Made by a program: the position numbers and the translations under genes
DNA from: Hyaloraphidium curvatum
Lineage: Eukaryota > Monoblepharomycota > Hyaloraphidiomycetes > Hyaloraphidiales > Hyaloraphidiaceae
Assembly: GCA_025558095.1 (NCBI GenBank)
Contig: JAIVFI010000006.1
Coordinates: 682,001 to 746,000, forward strand
Direction: 5' to 3'
Length of the DNA: 64,000 nucleotides
Part shown: positions 31,196-52,121 of the stretch, one piece after another
Position numbering within the stretch: the first letter of the stretch is position 1
Layout: every line of letters starts with the position of its first letter
Notes under the pieces: generated by a model
Databases searched by the model: none
What the model was told of the DNA's origin: nothing
The model's input: the letters and a program-made list of their open reading frames with translations, nothing else

Positions 31196-31941
31196 ATGTC
31201 GGACCCGCGGCCCTCCGAGTGCCTCGGCCCCACGGCCATCGTGGACTCGGACCACCCGCTCGTCGTGGACTTTGTCGCCAAGCACGCCCGCGGCGGCACC
31301 GACCTCGAGCGCGCCGTCTCCCTATACTACGCCGTCCGCGACGGCTACCGGTACGATCCCTACAAGTTCACCGTGACCGTCGAGGGCCTCCGCGCCAGCA
31401 CGGTGCTCGAGAACGGGTACGGGTGGTGCGTGCCCAAGGCCAACCTCCTGGCGGCCGTCTGCCGCGCCGCGGGGATCCCCGCGCGGCTGGGGTACGCGGA
31501 CGTGCGGAACCACCTCTCGACCGCCAAGATGCGGGCGTCGATGAAGACGGACGTGTTCCAGTGGCACGGCTACGTCGACATCTGGCTCGAGGACAAGTGG
31601 GTCAAGGTCGGTGCCTGTTGTCGGGGGGTTTGCTGCGCGGGCTGACTTTTGCCCTTCAGGCCACGCCGGCGTTCAACAAGTCGCTGTGCGACAAGTTCGG
31701 CTGGCTCCCCCTCGACTTTGACGGGCGTTCCGACTCTATCTACCACCCGTTCGACAAGAAGGGCGACCGGCACATGGAGTACCTCGCCTACCGCGGGGTG
31801 TTTGTCGAGTGCCCGATCGACGCCATGGCCGCGACGTTCGGCAAGCGCGACTCGGAGCTGGCGGGCGAGGACTTCCTGAAGGACGTGGACAGGGAGGTCG
31901 CCGCCGGGGCGGGGGAGCGGGCCGGCCAGGCGAGGCTGTAG
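31196..31941 (+). CDS. Transglutaminase-like superfamily protein
   Basis: Exons 31196-31606 and 31660-31941 give 230 residues. The cysteine-protease-like fold is marked by the nucleophile in ENGYGWCVPKANLLAAVCRA, by GIPARLGYADVRNHL, and by the His in FQWHGYVDIWLEDKWVK. The second intron junction leads to ATPAFN, where the motif's Asp-equivalent region lies. Bacterial relatives are stand-alone transglutaminase-core proteins, and some act as amidases or proteases. There is no signal peptide. The C-terminus is ARL, which fits a PTS1 peroxisomal signal. The gene starts 218 bp from the divergent membrane-protein gene. Confidence 0.8.
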
Positions 31942-32081: not shown

Positions 32082-32528
32082 TCACGCCGCCTCGCCGTCC
32101 TTTGCCCTCGGATACTCCAGGTCCAACCACCCGCTCGTCACCAGGAAATCCGCCGCCGCCGGGCTCATCGCACAGGGCACGTCGTAGAGCACCACGAGCC
32201 TCAGCAGCGCCTTGACGTCGGGATCGTGGGGCTGCGCCTCGAGCGGGTCCCAGAAAAACACCAGCACGTCCAGCCTCCCTTCGGCGATGGCCGCGCCGAT
32301 CTGCTGGTCCCCGCCCAGGGGGCCGCTGAGGAAGCGGTGCACGGGGAGGTCCAGCGCGGCGGAGGCGAGGCCGCCGGTGGTGCCGGTGCCGAAGAGCTCG
32401 TGCCGCGCGAGGGCGTCGCGGTGCTTGGCGGCCCATTTCAGCAGGAGGGACTTCATGTTGTCGTGCGCGACGAGGGCGATGCGCTTCCGCGCGGGGAGGG
32501 GGTGCGGGGCGGGCATTTTCGCAGGCAT
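32082..32528 (-). CDS. mgsA: Methylglyoxal synthase
   Basis: An intronless 148-residue protein, the same size as bacterial MgsA. The enzyme converts dihydroxyacetone phosphate to methylglyoxal and phosphate, a bypass of lower glycolysis. The family motifs are nearly complete: RIALVAHDNMKSLLLKWA, ELFGTGTTGG, SGPLGGDQQIGAAIAEG with the catalytic-base Asp, and FFWDPLEAQPHDPDVKALLR with the substrate-binding His and Asp. The tail AAADFLVTSGW also fits. Enzymes of this type are typical of bacteria and rare in fungi, so bacterial origin by transfer is likely. No targeting signal is seen, so it is probably cytosolic. The start at 32528 is preferred over upstream in-frame ATGs. It is divergent from the N-acetyltransferase gene, 346 bp away. 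Confidence 0.9.
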   Translation of the reverse strand: MPAKMPAPHPLPARKRIALVAHDNMKSLLLKWAAKHRDALARHELFGTGTTGGLASAALDLPVHRFLSGPLGGDQQIGAAIAEGRLDVLVFFWDPLEAQPHDPDVKALLRLVVLYDVPCAMSPAAADFLVTSGWLDLEYPRAKDGEAA

Positions 32529-32874
32529 CGCTACTTGGCTGTCCTTGGCGATGCGGAATGGCTGAACGGAATGTGCCTTGGCACGCAGGGCAGGAGCTTG
32601 ACAGGGCCCGGAGGTTCGGGGCTCGGAGACTTGACGTCCAGGACCAAACCGGCCGGCTGCCGCGCGGCAGTCGACGTCGAGAGCAAACACGGCTCCGTGA
32701 AAGGTGCCGAAGTCGCGCAAAATCGGCCGTGGTGTGCCGTGACTCCTGCGCGAACCCTGGCAACCGATCGTCTGTTGACGCGTTGATCGCGCGTCCCGTC
32801 CCTCACTCTCATTGGTCCGCGCCTCGCCCGCTTCAACGAGGGCCAGCCGCCGCCGACGCACTCCCTGCCGCACG

Positions 32875-34098
32875 ATGCGCCCGCAGCCGTTTCACGCGAC
32901 CCCCGCCGACCCCGCCTTCCCCGCGTCCTTCCTCGCCCTCCTCTCGCTCCCCGATCTGTCCCCCACGCTGCCCTCCCTCCGCGCCCTCGTGGCAAAGTGC
33001 ACCTCCCGCATCCCCTTCGAGTCGATGCAGCTGCACGAGCACGCGCACCATCCGGGGCGGCCGCACTACGACGGCGTGCCGAGCAACCCCGACCCCGGCC
33101 CGCAGCGCGTGGACGCCGAGCCCGCGGCGGTGTGGGAGCGCGTGCGCAGGGGGAGGGGGGGGTACTGCTGCGAGCTCAACGGCCTGGTGCACGCGGCGTT
33201 GAGGGCGTCGGGGTTCCGCGACGCGTGCGACGGGGTGCAGAGGGGCGGGGAGCCGTGGGTGCTCGCGACCGCGGCGCGCATCTCGCGGCTGGGCGTCGTC
33301 GGAGGGCTTACGCACCGCGTGTCGCTCGTCGGCTTGCCTTCCGAATCCGCACCGGGGGGTTACGACGCCTTCCTCGTGGATGTGGGATACGGCGCGGGGG
33401 CGCCTTCGTTGCCGGTGCCGCTGGACGGTAGAGTGGTGGGCAACGCGCAGGGCAGGTTCAGGGCCGTCAGGGGCGTGTGGGGCCAGCCGGATGCCGGGCC
33501 CGCGGGGGCGGACGGGGACTGGTTCGCGCGCACGGACGACGAATGGTGGCAAGGGCTCGGGAGGGGTTGGTACGTGCAGAGCTACCTCCCGGGCAACATC
33601 TACGACCCCAAGGCGGACCCGGCCTTCCGCTGGACATCGCTGTACTTCTTCACCCCCGTGGCATACCACGCGCCCGACTTCTTCGAGTTCAACCACTACG
33701 TGAGCACCTTCCCCGAGGCGCGCTTCGTCGCCGAGGAGGTGGCCTTCCGGTACCTCCGCTCGCGCGAGGGGGGCGCGGCGACGTTCCTGCGGACCGCGGT
33801 GGCGAGGAAGGAGGGCGGGCACGGGGTGCTCAGGGTGCGGTGGGGGAGGGTGGAGGCGCACGGGGACGTGGAGATGGATCCGTCGTGGGATGCGGGGGCG
33901 GGGCCGTGGGACGAGGAGGAGGACGAGGTGGCGGGGCTGCGGGGGAGGCTGGAGGGGCTCGAGAGGGACGGGTGGCTGGAAAGGGCGGAGGGGTCGGCCG
34001 AGGGCAAGCTGGCGTTCGTGCCGAGGTCGGAGGAGGGCAAGTGGAGGGCGCTCGAGGCCGTGTTTGGGATCAGGCGGCTGGCCGACATGGACGGCTAG
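32875..34098 (+). CDS. Arylamine N-acetyltransferase
   Basis: An intronless 407-residue protein of the NAT family, which transfers acetyl (or malonyl) from CoA to arylamines and hydrazines. In fungi it often serves detoxification. The catalytic triad is visible: Cys in RGRGGYCCELNGLVHAALR, His in GGLTHRVSLVG, and Asp in FLVDVGYGAGAP. N-terminal FESMQLHEH fits the family pattern of residues preceding the Cys. The protein is longer than bacterial NATs (~280), with an acidic, Glu/Gly-rich insertion near residues 320-365. The start at 32875 (MRPQPFHATP) is chosen because the upstream in-frame extension is Arg-rich and not conserved-looking. Confidence 0.85.
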   Translation: MRPQPFHATPADPAFPASFLALLSLPDLSPTLPSLRALVAKCTSRIPFESMQLHEHAHHPGRPHYDGVPSNPDPGPQRVDAEPAAVWERVRRGRGGYCCELNGLVHAALRASGFRDACDGVQRGGEPWVLATAARISRLGVVGGLTHRVSLVGLPSESAPGGYDAFLVDVGYGAGAPSLPVPLDGRVVGNAQGRFRAVRGVWGQPDAGPAGADGDWFARTDDEWWQGLGRGWYVQSYLPGNIYDPKADPAFRWTSLYFFTPVAYHAPDFFEFNHYVSTFPEARFVAEEVAFRYLRSREGGAATFLRTAVARKEGGHGVLRVRWGRVEAHGDVEMDPSWDAGAGPWDEEEDEVAGLRGRLEGLERDGWLERAEGSAEGKLAFVPRSEEGKWRALEAVFGIRRLADMDG

Positions 34099-35077: not shown

Positions 35078-35250
35078 GGCGGATTCCCGGGAAACCAGGC
35101 CTCGGAGTGTTTGGTGCGTGCTTTCGGGGTTGATAGGCGAAAGTCGCTAGACCGAACAGCCGATATAAACAAAGGACTTTCTGCTTCGGGCCGATTCCCG
35201 CCCACTGCCCATTGCGGCGGCAGCAGGAAGCGCGTTCCGCCTTCCCTACG

Positions 35251-35991
35251 ATGTCGGCTCCACCGCGCATGCCGCTGCCTCCGACACCCACCACCCCCCT
35301 GCCGATCCCCGGTCCCTCGGTCGCCAAACCCACGCTCTACCACTGCCCCTCCGCGCGCTCCTTCCGCGCCCTGTGGGCCCTGGAGGAGCTCGGCCTGGAC
35401 TACGACCTCGTGGTGATGCCGTTCCCCCCCCGCGTCTTCGAAAAGGCCTACCTCAAGGTCAACCCGCTCGGCACGATCCCGCTGTACCTCGAAGGCACGA
35501 CGCGGATGACGGAATCGGCGGCCATCTGCGAGTTCCTCGCCGCGCGGCACGGCCCGACAACGCTGGCCGTGAAGCCCGAGGAGCCGGCGTTCGGGGACTA
35601 CCTCAATTTCCTGTACCAGGGCGAGGCGACCCTCACCTTCCCGCAGACCATCGTGCTGCGGTACAGGTTCCTCGAGGTCGGCAAGCAGGGCCGCGACGGC
35701 GCCGCGGACGACTACGGGACCTGGTTCCTCGCGCGGCTGCGGCACGCCGGGGCCAAGCTCGAGCGGGAAGAGTACGTCTGCGCGGGCAGGTTCACCATGG
35801 CGGACATCAGCTTCGCGTACGCGCTGATGCTGGCCGAGCGGGTCGGCCTGGACAAGGGGTTCCCGCCCGCGGTGGCGCGGTACTGGGCGAGGATGAAGGA
35901 GCGCGACGGGTTCAAAAGGGCGATCGCGGCGCAGGAGAGGGGGGCGGAGGCGAGGGGGCTCGCGGCCAAGCCGAGGACGTACGCTTCTTGA
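35251..35991 (+). CDS. Glutathione S-transferase
   Basis: An intronless 246-residue cytosolic-type GST. The thioredoxin-like domain has YHCPSARSFRALWALEELGL with the probable catalytic Ser/Cys region, VNPLGTIPLYLEG with the cis-Pro, and the glutathione gamma-glutamyl contact in MTESAAICEFLA. The alpha-helical domain includes AGRFTMADISFAYALML, the N-capping box of GSTs. The arrangement resembles bacterial/fungal GSTs of broad detoxifying activity. The preferred start is 35251 (MSAPPRMPLP), which adds a Pro-rich leader of ~25 residues before the beta strand. It converges on the next gene with 45 bp between. Confidence 0.85.
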   Translation: MSAPPRMPLPPTPTTPLPIPGPSVAKPTLYHCPSARSFRALWALEELGLDYDLVVMPFPPRVFEKAYLKVNPLGTIPLYLEGTTRMTESAAICEFLAARHGPTTLAVKPEEPAFGDYLNFLYQGEATLTFPQTIVLRYRFLEVGKQGRDGAADDYGTWFLARLRHAGAKLEREEYVCAGRFTMADISFAYALMLAERVGLDKGFPPAVARYWARMKERDGFKRAIAAQERGAEARGLAAKPRTYAS

Positions 35992-44462: not shown

Positions 44463-44649
44463 CCCCAGGCGCGTTGCAGAAGATGGTGAGGTGTCCCGTC
44501 TCAGAGGCAGCAACCAAGGCGCCGACAACGGCTTTGAGGCGCTCTCGCCGGGGTGGCAAGCTCCTCCGCACGTTTCGGATCTAGTTTCCGGACGGAAACA
44601 GGAGAGCCAGCAGTGGTCGATTGCTGACTACAAGATTCTTCGCCTTGAT

Positions 44650-47600
44650 TCAGTACACGTCGTCGAGCATCAGCGTCCGATCTTCCGGCCCCGCCAGGCT
44701 CCCGTCCAGCGGCCTGTACTGCGACCTCCCGCCGCCTCCCGCATACCCGCCCGCCCGGCCGTTGCTCGCCTTGAACACGACCCAATCGTACCCGTCCTGC
44801 GCCCGCTCCCAGAGCCACGTCGCACCGATGGCGATGTAGTGCGCGGCCGTGTGGAACGCGGCGATGGAGTAGTCCACCACCGCGTTGAGCCAGGGCGGCA
44901 GGTTCCCGGAGGAGCGCGACCCGGGCATGAGGCCGAAATCGTCGTCGGGGAGCATGATCCGCGAGTGCTGCTTCCGGTAGTAGTCCAGGAAGGCGATCGC
45001 GGAGCCGAAGATGGCGACGAAGAGCACGATGAGGCCGACGACGCCGCCGACGCCCATGCCGCCGCTCGGAGCCACTGCGAATGTCGTCGTCAGACAACCC
45101 AATCCAACCGAGATCGACAGCACGAGCAAACTCACCGCAAGCGACCATCTCGGTCCCCTTGTCCAGCTCCTCGCCGCCCTGGCACGTGCTCTTGACCATC
45201 TTCCGATACCCCGTGGACAGCTGCGCCCGTCCTCCGATGCACTCGAGCTGCGGCCGCGCCGCCCCGCTCACGAGCACGCACCGGCCGTCCGAGTCCCTCC
45301 GGTAGTTGAAGTCGCACTCAAAGTCGGCCCGCGTGCAGGCACAGTTCTTCTGGACGACCTTGGGCGTCTCCTGGAACTTGTCCCCGACGAAGCAGTCGGC
45401 CTCGCGCTTCTTGCGCCAGTACTGGATCTCGTGGCCAAAGTGGCACTCGGTGTGGTTGGCAGCAGTGGGGCTCCACAGCTCAAAGTCGCTCTTGGACGGG
45501 TCCGACTCGTCCAGCTTGCACTTGCGCGACCGCGCGCCCTCGAAGTTGAGGTGGATCGCCGCCTGCTGGCCGTCCCGGGCGGATCCGACATAGCGGCCAA
45601 AGAGGACAAACTGCTGCGAGGTCGAGTCCGGCTCGGTCGCGATGTCCGTGATGCGGATCTTTTCGTTCATGCTGTCGACGATGCGGTATTCGAGCCACGT
45701 CAGGCCCATGGTGAGCGAGTACAGGACCTTGTCGGTCGGCCCCTCGTCGAACACCATGAGCAGGATCGAGCCGTGGTCGCCGTACTCGAACATGAAGGCG
45801 TCCTTGTGCACCTCGATCCAGGTCCGGCCGGCATCGCGCGTAAGGTACGTGTTGCCGTCGGTGTACTTGGTGAGGTACGGGCCGACGTTGCCCACGCCCA
45901 TCATGAGGCCCGGCGCCGAGAGCTGGCTGAACTGCATCCTCGGATCGCGACGCTCGGTGTACGAGTGGATGTTGAGGGAGCAGCCGCCGGCGCAGGAAGA
46001 GTACGGCGTGCCGTCCACGGCGCGCTCGGGCGGCGTCACGGTCGACCAGGTGGAGCCGTCGTCAAAGGTGATGAGGGTCTTCACCTTCTTGTCCGCTCCC
46101 TGCTCAGCCTCCTTGGGGTTCGTGACCTGGTTGACGAGCGCGATGCCCTGGATGCCCTGCATCTTCTCGAAATCGACGTAGCCCAGCGCGTTGCGGTTCG
46201 TGTTGTCCACGGCGACGCTGTAGTAGGTACCGTTCCAGTTTGAAATCATGAGGCTGCCCCACTCGGAACCGCGCTCGGCATGCGAATAGACGTCGAGGAA
46301 GACGCGGCCGGTCGAGCTCTCCAGCACCGTGTAGCCGTGCGAGGGCACGCGGAAGTTGGGCGGGAACTGCGCCCTGGCAAAGTTGGTGCCGTCCACGGAG
46401 ACAAAGAGGTCCAGGTGGCCGGCTCCGGGCTGCATCTCCGCCACGACCATGAAGCTCTCGAACAGCGCAAAGCCGAGCGAGTTGTCGACGACGACCTGCG
46501 AGCCCTCGCCCGTCTCGCCGTTGGCGAAGAAGTTCTCCGTCCGGAGGAGGCGCAGTCGGTTGTCCTTGAGCGCCCCGCGCTGGTTCCCCTTCTTCTCCTG
46601 GTAGGCCTGGCAGAAGAGCACCGTGTCCGTCGGGTGCTGGAACTGGGCGTCCCGGCCCCACGAGCAGGCCTCAACGTAGGTGGTTAGCGACTTCCAGAAC
46701 CGGCCGCCGTCGGTCGAGAAGTACGCCTCGGTGTGGCAGTCCTGCTCCGACAGGGCGTGGCAACCCTTGATGCTGCCCACGAAGATGAGCCACTCGGGGT
46801 GGTCGCGGTGGAACTTGAGGATGGGCGCCTTCAGGATGTTGGGCTCCAGTGGAAGAAGGATCTCCTTGACCGTCTTGCCGGCGTCGGGCGTGTACCACAG
46901 GTATTTGGACTGCGTGATGAAGTACGCCTAGGGAGGAAGGGGCGTTAGACATCGGCAACGGCAAATTCCGAACCCCACCCACATATCGCCTGTCGTACGG
47001 GTTGGGGATGATGTCGATGACCTTGGTGTCCTTCTCCAGACCGTCGCGGTCCTTCTCTCCGCGATGCGACTTGAGCAGATCGTCCCAGTCCTTGCCCTCG
47101 TTGTCCGACTTCCAAATCTTGCCATCCGAATCCCTGGCCAGCACCGTCGTGGTGTCGACGAACCACGTCCAGTCCTCGATCAGCGAGTCGAACGTGGTCA
47201 CGGTCCGCTTGACGGCCACGGAATCCGAAGGGTCGCTGTCCTGCCCGCAGACCTTTTCGACCTTGCCCGAGAGATCGACCCCGCCCTTGCACGTGCTGAG
47301 GGCGTTCTTGCGGTACCCGCTCGGCGCGGTGTACTTCTCGCCGGGCTTGCAATCCTTCGGGGCATCGGGATCCGCGCCGTACAGCGTGCACTTGCCCGTG
47401 TTCTCGTCGCGCCAGTAGGTCACGTCGCTGCGACATCACCCGTGAGGAACTGAAGGGCCAGAAGCACACGGGGCGATCACTAACCACTCGTAGTCGGCTG
47501 CGCTGCATTCGCAGTCCTCCACGATGACACGGCTATCGGTGTAGAGGTCTCCGATGTAGCAGTCGGCGGTGGGCAGGCGCCTCCACCAGTACGTCCTCCG

Positions 47601-50600
47601 TCCGAGCACGCAGTCGGGCTTGTCGTCCGTCCCGGTCAGAACCCACTTCTCAAAGTCGGCGCTGAAGGTGCACTTGCGCGCAAAGGCCTGCGAAAAGTCC
47701 ACCTGCACCAGGACGGTCTCGCGGCTGCGGCCGAACGCGGACTCGGCGTAGCCGACGAGAAGGAAGCGGAGAGAGGTCCCCTTGGGCTCCGTCGTCACCG
47801 TCTTGACGCGGATCTTGCCGTCCTTGGAGAACTTGTACCGGTACCAGTTGGCGCCGTAATCGAGCGTGAAGAGGAGCTCGTCGGTCGCCGATTCGTCGTT
47901 GACCAGGATGATGACCGAGCCGCGGTCGCCAAACTCCCACTGGTGCGGTCCCTTGGCAATCTCGCGCCAGTGCGCGCCCGCATCCGTCGACATGTACGTG
48001 TCGCTCATCGTGTACGGATTCAGGCGATCTCCGACGTTGCCGACGGCGACCATGATCCCCGGCGCCGACTCGGACGAGAAGAGCGAGCCCATGGTGCTTT
48101 CCGGATCGGTATCGGTGATCGAGTGGATGTGAAGCATGCACTGCCGAGGGAAGGACAATCAGCGATGGCTCCGACCTACTCAGTCAGAGCTCCCACCTTC
48201 GACGACGATGGGCACTTGTACGGCTGACCCAGCGAATCCTTCGACGGCGCGATCCATTCGTTCCACGTCGCGCCGTTGTCGAAGCTCACCACGGAGCCGA
48301 CCTGCTTCTTGTCGCCGGTGCTCGCGCCGGTCGGGTTCAGCACCCTGTTGGCGAGGATCACGCCCTCGACTGCCATCGACTTTTCGTAGTCGACGAGGCC
48401 CCGCGAGTTGCGGTTGGTGTTCTTGAGCGCCTGGGTGAAGAAGGTGCCGTTGCTGTTCGAGACAAAAAGGTTGCCCTGTTCCTGGCCGTGCCGCGTGTTG
48501 CCCGCGACGTCGAGGTAGATGGTGCCCGGGTGCGAATCGAGGAGGGTGAAGCCGTTCTTCTCCACGCTCAGGTACGGCGGGAACTGGGCCTCGGCAAAGT
48601 TGAGCCCGTCCACGGAGACCATGAGCTTGAGCTTCGATCCGTCGTCCTGTCACGGGAGGAAATCAGCACCGCCATCGAACGACAAGCAACAGCCAAACCC
48701 ACCAAGGCCACGACCAGGAAGCCGCTCACGACATACCAGTCCGACACCTGCTCGAACAGCACCCGCTTCGTGCCCGCGTTGGCGTACTCTGCGAACTCGA
48801 CCGGGTTCTCCTTGGGCGACACCAGCCCGCTCTCGAGCTGCTCCTGCCCGCCGAACTTGCCGTCCTTGATCTTCCACCCCGAGCAGTAGACCGAGTCCCG
48901 GGTCAGCGCCGAGGCGGTGAAGTTGACGTCCTGCGCCCAGAGGCACTTGCGCACCCAGGTGTCCCACGGGTTGGTCGACCACGTGCGGCCGTGGTCGATG
49001 CTGGTGTAGGCCAGCGTCTTGCAGTCGCGGCCGGGGCACTTGCCCGCCGGCTGCGCGACCAGGACGAGCCAGTCCGGTTCCGTCGGGTGGAAGTCGAACA
49101 CGGGCACCCCGAGGCGGTTCCACTCGAGGCCCGCGGGGAGCTCCATCTTCCTCAGGCTGCCCGCCTTGTCCTTCTCGGTCGCGTAGCCCTCGAGCCGGTC
49201 CTCGGTGTACCATGTCTCGCCCTTGGCGGTCAAAAAGTATGCCCGCTTCTCGGCCACGTCCGACAGGATCACCATCTCGACCTTGCCGAGGTCCGACAGG
49301 ACCCGCGTCCACTTGCCGCCCTCGTCGCCGCTCCACCAGACCTCCCCCGCGAGCGTCCTGAGGACAACCACGGGCGACCGCTTGAAGTAGCTGATGAAGG
49401 TGATGTCCGCCTCGCTCATGGAGGTGATCTGCGTCGAGATCTTGATCGAAGACGGGGCGTCGCCGATGGTGCCGTTGCTCCGAGGTTCCTCGGGGGCGGG
49501 ACCGATCCCACCGCCTCCGCCGGCGCCGCCGTCCGCCCCGCAGACGCGGTCTACGGGGGCATCGAGCACCTGCCCGCCCTCGCACGCGTCCCCCGGCTTC
49601 TTCACATACGCGGACCGCGAGCTGTACTTCTCCCCGTCGCGGCACCCGCGCGGCATGTCGGGGTCGCGGTTGTCGGGCCACGCCTTGAGCGTGCAGTTGA
49701 GCGGGTCCGACGCCGAGCCCGAGTGCTCGAAGTAGAGGTCGCAGGCGTAGTCGGCGGGGGTGCAGGCGCACTTCTTGACCTCGGTGCGGACGTCCTTGCC
49801 GACCTCGCCGACGTAGCACTCTGCATTGGGCTTTCGGCGGTACCAGCCTGTCCCAAAAGAAACGGTCAGCCACGCGCCGCGAGTGCCGATCGGGCATAGA
49901 ACCCACCGAGCTCCTGGCCCAGAATGCAGTCCGACCCCCCAACGTAGTCCCTCGGCTTCCACAGCTCCATGTCCTCCGCGCCGCACTTGCGCCCCCACAC
50001 GCCGCCGAAATCCAGGTGGATGGCGTGCCAATCCACCGGCCCCTCCTTGCCCTGCCCGTCGTGCGCGTACGCGAGGACGAGGAACTGCGCCGAGCTCGAG
50101 TCCGGCATCGTGAGCACCCTCTCCACCGCGAGCTTCTTGCCCGCCGCCGCGCCCTTGACCTCGTGGTCGAACCACGTGCGCCCGTGGTCGGGCGACCACC
50201 GGATCTGCGACTCGCGCGCCATGACGATGAGGGCGCCGATGTCCCCCACGGCGTACTCCCACTCGCCCTTGCCGACCGCCTTCCACGTGGCGCCGCCGTC
50301 CGTGGAGAGGAAGGTGTCGCTCTCGGCCGTGGGGAGCAGCTTCTTCCCGACCGAGCCGACCCCCAAGAGCACGCCGGGGGCGGGTGAGCTGAAGGTGCTC
50401 TCCCCCGAGATGGACGAGTGCAGGTGCAGGTCGCAGGGATCCGCGGCCGTCAGCGAGCACTTGTACGCCTTGCCCTCGTTGTCCGTCGGCGGCCCGCGGA
50501 GGGGGGCCCATGTGAACCCGTCGTCCCAGGACCAACGGGTGACGACGTCCTTGAACCGCGTGGTGCCCTTCTCCACCTCCTCCCAGTTCTGCACCACGTT

Positions 50601-52121
50601 GGCCATCAGGATGCCCTCGTAGATGCCGCCGCCCTTTCCGATGTCGACGCGCTCGAAGTCGACCTTGCCCGTGGTCGCGTCCCGGTTGGTGTGCTCCAGC
50701 GCGGGCACGTAGCGCGACCCCGTGGCGTCCGAGATGAGCAGGGTGCCGGTGAAGGAGGGGTGCGAGCCCGTGGGGTTGCGGACGGTCGAGGAGAGGTCGA
50801 TGAAGAGCGCGTGCGGGGCCGAGGGGAGGATGGTGTAGGCGTTCTCGCGGATGTTGAAACCCACGGGGAAGCGCGCGCGGCGGAAGGTCTGACCGTCGAC
50901 CGAGACGAAGAGCTCGGCGCCGACGGTGGCCGATTGGGCGGCCTGGAATTGGTCGGCCAGGAAAGCGGGAACGGATCAGCCTGCGTCGTCCGCGGAGACG
51001 GTCCGGCAACCCACCACCGCGACGACCATGAACCTCTCGATCACGCCGAGCCCCACGACCGCGCCGTTCACCACCTCCCCGTCGTCCCCGCCGCCGAGCG
51101 TCACGGTGGTCTTGCTGCCCTTGAAGAACTCGCCCGAGTACACGAGCCGGGGCAGCTTCCCGTCCGCGCCGGCCTCGGTGCAGTACACGGCCTTGTCCGG
51201 CGGGTTCGTGAAGGCGGGGTTGCTCCGCGCCCACACGCACGAGGTGGTGTACTCGAGCAGGGGCTCGAAGGAGGGCGAGGTGGAGGTGGAGACGAAGGTG
51301 TCTTCGTGGCACTTTTGCGCCAGGCCCAGGAACACGGGGACGCACTTCTTGCCTGCAAAATGGCGCTCATCTTAGCAGACGTTGTCTAGGTAGCCGACGT
51401 TGTGCCACCCACCCTGAAAGAGGAGGTAGTTGCTGTTTCCCGAGTGGAAGCCGAGCATGTAGCCCGCGGTGTCGAACGCCGGCGCCAGGGGCGTATCGAA
51501 CGTGGTCCACGACAAGCCCTTGTTCCTCGTGATGTAGTGCGTCGTCGAGTCGGTCAGGACAAAGGCCTGTGGGTGAAACGCGTTCAAAATCAAGTCGCGC
51601 GACTCGGCGACCCGCCGCTGAGGCGACACCCACCGTGTCGGGATCGTGCTCGTGCCTCATCAGCACTTTTGCTGCCCCCTTCGGTATGTCTGCGGTCATT
51701 GTCCACGTCTTGCCCTGGTCCGCGGAGCGGTACAGCGCCTCCGCGTCGCCCGAGAGGATGAGGATGACCTGACGACGGGGCAGCCGGGAACGGGGCGCCG
51801 GAATGAGCACATGAAATGCTGCCTGTGCCCCGCAGTTGCGCGCACCTCCGAGTCCTTGAAGTAGACCAGCCTGCGCGGCGCGTGGTCGAAGCGGACGGCG
51901 GTCTCGACGACCTTGGAGGCCATGTCGGCCGGCGGGGCCGCGGCGGCCCCGCTCCACCCGAGCGCAAGCAGCGCCGCCGCGCAGCCGAGCAGGAACGCCG
52001 CCCCGAGGAACCGGCCCCGTGCGGGCGCGCCCCGCGGTGTCGGCGGCGCGCGCGGCCTCTGCCGCCCCTCGGCCGCCCCCCGCGCGCGGCCCGCCGGCGC
52101 GGCGTGCTCCGCTCGCTCCAT
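44650..52121 (-). CDS. Vps10-type sorting receptor with three Vps10 modules
   Basis: Eleven exons: 51846-52121, 51634-51768, 51413-51566, 51015-51352, 49907-50942, 48703-49847, 48197-48646, 47485-48140, 46983-47427, 45136-46927 and 44650-45074. They give 2,283 residues in one closed frame. A signal anchor (FLGAAFLLGCAAALLALGW) opens it. Three Vps10 beta-propeller modules follow (about 52.0-49.7, 49.6-47.4 and 47.3-45.2 kb), each with Asp-box repeats (SADQGKTW, STDAGAHW, TRDAGRTW). Each closes with a Cys module (CACTPADYACD, CECSAADYEC, CACTRADFECD). One membrane helix (VGGVVGLIVLFVAIFG) and a ~120-residue cytosolic tail follow. Vps10 carries vacuolar hydrolases from the trans-Golgi to endosomes. 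Yeast Vps10 has two modules, so three is unusual. Confidence 0.85.

Follow-up and report, generated by a model that had tools for sequence, protein, structure and literature searches.

Here we describe a gene for an MgsA-type methylglyoxal synthase in the genome of a fungus, which was very probably gained by the fungus or an ancestor via horizontal transfer from a bacterium and has been kept intact. The gene lies within a window of 64,000 nucleotides (C6:682001-746000, the whole stretch of DNA analysed here) from a 31.9-Mb assembly of 55 contigs. A sequence-only reading of this window had proposed that a fungal genome encodes a methylglyoxal synthase of bacterial type, and this proposal is borne out by family models, the active site, the predicted fold, a single-copy site in the middle of a contig, host-like codons, and a bacterial position in phylogenetic trees. 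The novelty lies in a known enzyme family found in an unexpected host, a fungal chromosome, which it most likely reached by transfer. The host is surprising because the enzyme is stated to be confined to prokaryotes in a 2024 paper (PMC11897720) and to be absent in eukaryotic species in another one (PMC4722173). A fungal transcriptome paper describes methylglyoxal synthase as undescribed for Aspergillus oryzae (PMC9394295). The passage of a bacterial gene into a fungus is nothing unusual as such, given the 20,093 prokaryote-derived genes reported for 829 fungal genomes in a recent survey (PMC11708051); the word methylglyoxal does not occur in the main text of that survey. Our literature search found no paper on a transferred fungal methylglyoxal synthase gene, and fungal members of the family may already be present, automatically annotated, in public protein databases.

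The methylglyoxal synthase gene occupies C6:714,082-714,528 in the assembly, and its position in the window and those of its neighbours are given in Table 1. Its frame is unbroken from ATG to stop. The sequence-only reading had reported a real frame with correct coordinates and the correct length of 148 codons, and had left the strand unstated; the frame is on the minus strand, and the plus-strand translation of the same interval is unrelated. Although the frame remains open upstream of position 32528, this position holds the first in-frame ATG. Open frames upstream of the ATG are common at the GC content of these sequences, and a start at this ATG aligns the protein with the starts of its bacterial relatives.

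Table 1. Features of the methylglyoxal synthase locus (window positions).
Feature	Position	Strand	Details
Methylglyoxal synthase gene (MgsA-type), single exon, 148 aa	32082-32528	-	ATG at 32528, stop at 32084-32082; profile and structure matches
Transglutaminase-like gene (PF01841)	exons 31196-31606, 31660-31941	+	convergent neighbour; spliced protein, E 3e-17
Intron of transglutaminase-like gene	31607-31659	+	53 bp, GT..AG
Arylamine N-acetyltransferase gene (PF00797), single exon	32875-34098	+	divergent neighbour, E 8e-16
Intergenic stretch	32529-32874		346 bp, lies between the methylglyoxal synthase gene and its divergent N-acetyltransferase neighbour

The predicted product is a full-length MgsA-type methylglyoxal synthase and an ordinary member of its family. 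Two NCBIfam equivalog models for methylglyoxal synthase, each covering most of the protein, score above their cut-offs (NF003559, 187.1 bits, E 1.3e-55, cut-off 84; TIGR00160, 163.7 bits, E 2.4e-48, cut-off 146.9), and the PF02142 domain is matched with an E of 8e-15. In a sequence search against PDB, all 11 matches are methylglyoxal synthases, the best of which is the E. coli enzyme (1b93, E 1e-46, ungapped over 123 residues). The four sequence blocks quoted in the earlier reading are all present in the protein. When positions are read through an ungapped alignment (E. coli numbering +3), residues H22, D23, K26, T48, G49, T50, T51, S68, G69, G72, G73, D74, D94, H101, D104, and R110 are the same as in E. 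coli, and these 16 positions are unvarying across 24 aligned relatives. Conserved are the catalytic Asp71, His98, Asp101, His19, Asp20, and Lys23 (E. coli numbering), as well as the phosphate-binding loops GTGTT and SGPxGGD, with residue roles that we take to be those established for the E. coli enzyme. The AlphaFold2 monomer model has a pLDDT of 87.7, and its best PDB match in a fold search is again 1b93 (54% identity, 1.6 A, TM 0.85). At 148 residues, this stand-alone MGS-fold protein falls within the range of roughly 125-155 residues typical of methylglyoxal synthases. A gene that was acquired from bacteria and retained can take on a new function, and the activity of this protein is predicted by homology; it might be re-used elsewhere, for instance in phosphate sensing or triose phosphate binding, and might no longer be a methylglyoxal synthase. 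We consider such a re-use very unlikely, as we found no change in any of the catalytic residues that we compared, in the phosphate-binding loop, or in Arg110, and the score exceeds the curated equivalog cut-off.

Other PF02142 matches in the host genome are located on contigs C18, C44, and C47, and from their frame lengths and family they would be carbamoyl phosphate synthase and ATIC. In the region of the purine-gene match, ~2.3 kb are common to contigs C44 and C47, with 99.5% identity (L003-L006). The duplicate matches thus reflect an overlap of contig ends and do not demonstrate a second haplotype; the assembly probably contains redundant contig ends.

The identity of the host as a fungus is supported: Fungal_trans (PF04082) has 74 matches in the assembly vs 0 in 14 prokaryote control genomes, and contig C6 itself carries one such match elsewhere. 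A yeast 18S stretch found no counterpart in the host genome, and neither did tektin, whose absence says nothing on the placement of the fungus. Fungal genes occur along the whole window, which also encodes a GMA12/MNN10 glycosyltransferase, a PTR2 transporter, a sideroflexin, a TFIIS-domain protein, and a P450, and two Vps10/sortilin-type genes are arranged in tandem on the minus strand (44504-46927 and 47439-51371). A glutathione S-transferase-like gene (35137-35988, plus strand) lies ~2.6 kb from the methylglyoxal synthase gene, and a link between the two through glutathione-dependent removal of methylglyoxal is a speculation.

The methylglyoxal synthase gene is integrated in the recipient chromosome beside recipient genes. 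It is present in a single copy in the assembly, beyond the first 700 kb of contig C6, and no second copy of its flanks, as a possible allele without the gene, was found in the assembly. The GC content by codon position is 0.73/0.47/0.93 vs 0.71/0.54/0.94 in the adjacent N-acetyltransferase gene, and in codon usage the gene ranks at the 63rd percentile among 54 host segments of the same length (148 codons). The earlier reading had placed the gene between spliced genes, which holds for the left neighbour and fails for the right one: the transglutaminase-like gene, ~140 bp away, runs into a stop at 31645 when read unspliced and needs its intron, and the N-acetyltransferase gene is one open frame. 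The intergenic stretch between the divergent genes is likely their shared promoter region. The single copy, the position deep inside the contig, the host-like codons, and the proximity to an intron-bearing gene argue against contamination, as the sequence-only reading had also argued from the neighbouring genes, and nothing pointed to a contaminant in the assembly. The lack of introns and the bacterial nature of the closest sampled relatives are as would be expected if the assembler had joined bacterial DNA onto a fungal contig. However, the neighbours lie only ~140 and 346 bp away and one of them requires an intron, and such a chimera would need two joins within ~1 kb that left one gene and no other bacterial DNA, and the closest bacterial protein found is only ~75% identical. 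An assembly artefact of this kind appears extremely unlikely. A bacterial gene block shared with the transglutaminase-like neighbour was considered and rejected: of five bacterial genomes examined, two gave matches, all of them weak (30-35%), which gives no sign that this neighbour arrived together with the methylglyoxal synthase gene.

Relatives of the fungal protein were collected by scanning 84,980 bacterial and archaeal species genomes, and the best 80 of them, from many phyla, have 57-71% identity. Sampling the phylum of the L029 genome, an uncultured Verrucomicrobia bacterium, added two proteins, L118 and L119, with 74-75% identity (75% over 132-133 residues), and nothing closer was obtained from the phyla of the genomes of L008 and L032 (Anaeromyxobacter). 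Judging by the genes flanking L008, its genome would belong to the Planctomycetota. This phylum was rejected as the donor, with matches in 16 of the 392 genomes sampled and a close match in the L008 genome alone. The genome encoding L119 (G484) also contains a partial second methylglyoxal synthase copy with an internal TAG (C1, ~4,428,981-4,429,172), ~4 kb from the intact one. Methylglyoxal synthase frames with 57-60% identity to the fungal protein were observed in IMG/VR contigs (L157:2962-3387 and similar loci L158-L169), and the phage-like appearance of the neighbouring frames on L157 suggests that copies of the gene are carried by phages.

In a 91-row tree, the fungal protein grouped with the Verrucomicrobiota proteins L118 and L119 (support 96/89) and next with L029 and L008 (94/87), and after removal of the longest branches the supports for these two groupings were 100/94 and 98/87. 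Grouping with Bacteroidota was rejected (p 0.007), as was grouping with three Promicromonospora-type Actinomycetota rows (p 0.0016), while Myxococcota were not rejected (p 0.135); the resolution of the tree is limited because the protein has only 148 residues. The donor most likely belonged to the Verrucomicrobiota or a lineage near them, as these sequence comparisons suggest without proving it. Compared with L118, 29 of 132 sites differ at the first codon position, 18 at the second, and 82 at the third, a divergence that lies partly on the bacterial side. The far greater divergence of the third position than of the second is what would be expected of a protein under selective constraint.

The phylogeny with bacterial relatives, which the earlier reading had proposed as a check, thus places the fungal protein inside bacteria as a sister to L118 and L119, and the deep eukaryotic clade that it had named as the contrary outcome did not turn up in our bacterial and archaeal sampling. 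The gene might instead be an old one of eukaryotes or of the fungi at large, passed down vertically or received by an early fungus, rather than a recent gain of this lineage. Such an age would agree with the host-like codon usage, with the fairly long terminal branch of the fungal protein (in two trees, lengths of 0.42 to 0.57 changes per site), and with the moderate identity to the nearest bacterial protein, and our relatives were sampled from bacteria and archaea. Against this, the fungal protein is nested with support among bacterial sequences, in trees composed of bacterial sequences only, and does not fall outside the bacteria, and the literature cited above confines the enzyme to prokaryotes or reports it as absent from eukaryotic species. 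We regard an old gene as unlikely and favour horizontal transfer, in which a functional enzyme gene would have passed from a bacterium to the fungus or its ancestor and would then have been adjusted to the composition of the host.

Methylglyoxal synthase (EC 4.2.3.3) is a homohexamer, and many members of the family are inhibited by phosphate. By homology, the fungal enzyme would convert dihydroxyacetone phosphate to methylglyoxal and phosphate. In this reaction, Asp74 (Asp71 in E. coli) would act as the base that takes the proton, and His101 (His98) would polarise the carbonyl, while the phosphate would be held by the GTGTT and SGPLGGD loops. The enzyme is probably cytosolic; it would drain triose phosphate and set phosphate free, and glyoxalase and reductase enzymes of the fungus itself would turn the methylglyoxal into D-lactate or other products. 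Glyoxalase I is matched in two pieces on contig C17, each below the family cut-off (110.6 of the required 120 bits for the longer one), probably owing to an intron that interrupts the gene, and with such an enzyme methylglyoxal could be routed to D-lactate. The catalytic activity, expression, physiological role, and metabolic importance of the fungal enzyme are inferred here.

In the literature, methylglyoxal of eukaryotes is viewed as an unavoidable by-product and its synthase as a prokaryotic enzyme. The present gene raises the possibility that a fungus may make this reactive compound on purpose. We tentatively suggest, while considering it rather doubtful, that a dedicated and regulated enzyme of bacterial origin was added to accidental methylglyoxal formation, where it would either bypass glycolysis with release of phosphate or provide a controlled signal for stress and growth. 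The intact active site makes the fungal gene a clean test of dedicated methylglyoxal formation, with methylglyoxal, D-lactate, and stress signalling as readouts, and the protein may be of use as an enzyme of fungal source for producing 1,2-propanediol.

Methylglyoxal synthase activity has been claimed for another fungus, Saccharomyces cerevisiae, for which we know of no MgsA-family gene. Like our proposal, that claim (Murata 1985, as cited in PMC8600716) concerns enzymatic formation of methylglyoxal in a fungus; the yeast activity is there said to be phosphate-insensitive. The MGS-like domains of carbamoyl phosphate synthase and AICAR transformylase/IMP cyclohydrolase belong to the same PF02142 superfamily and occur in this fungus and most life, but they are parts of large enzymes, have 15-17% identity to the fungal protein in the fold search, and lack the MgsA catalytic set. 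E. coli MgsA (PDB 1b93, 1egh) shares with the fungal protein its catalytic and phosphate-binding residues and its predicted fold, with the identity of the structural match given above, whereas the host and the short N- and C-terminal ends differ, and the function of the fungal protein is predicted by homology. The closest known counterparts are the MgsA-type proteins L118 and L119 of Verrucomicrobiota, which are the nearest in identity and sister to the fungal protein in the trees but reside in bacterial genomes, at loci of lower GC content (0.59 and 0.63), among ordinary bacterial neighbour genes.
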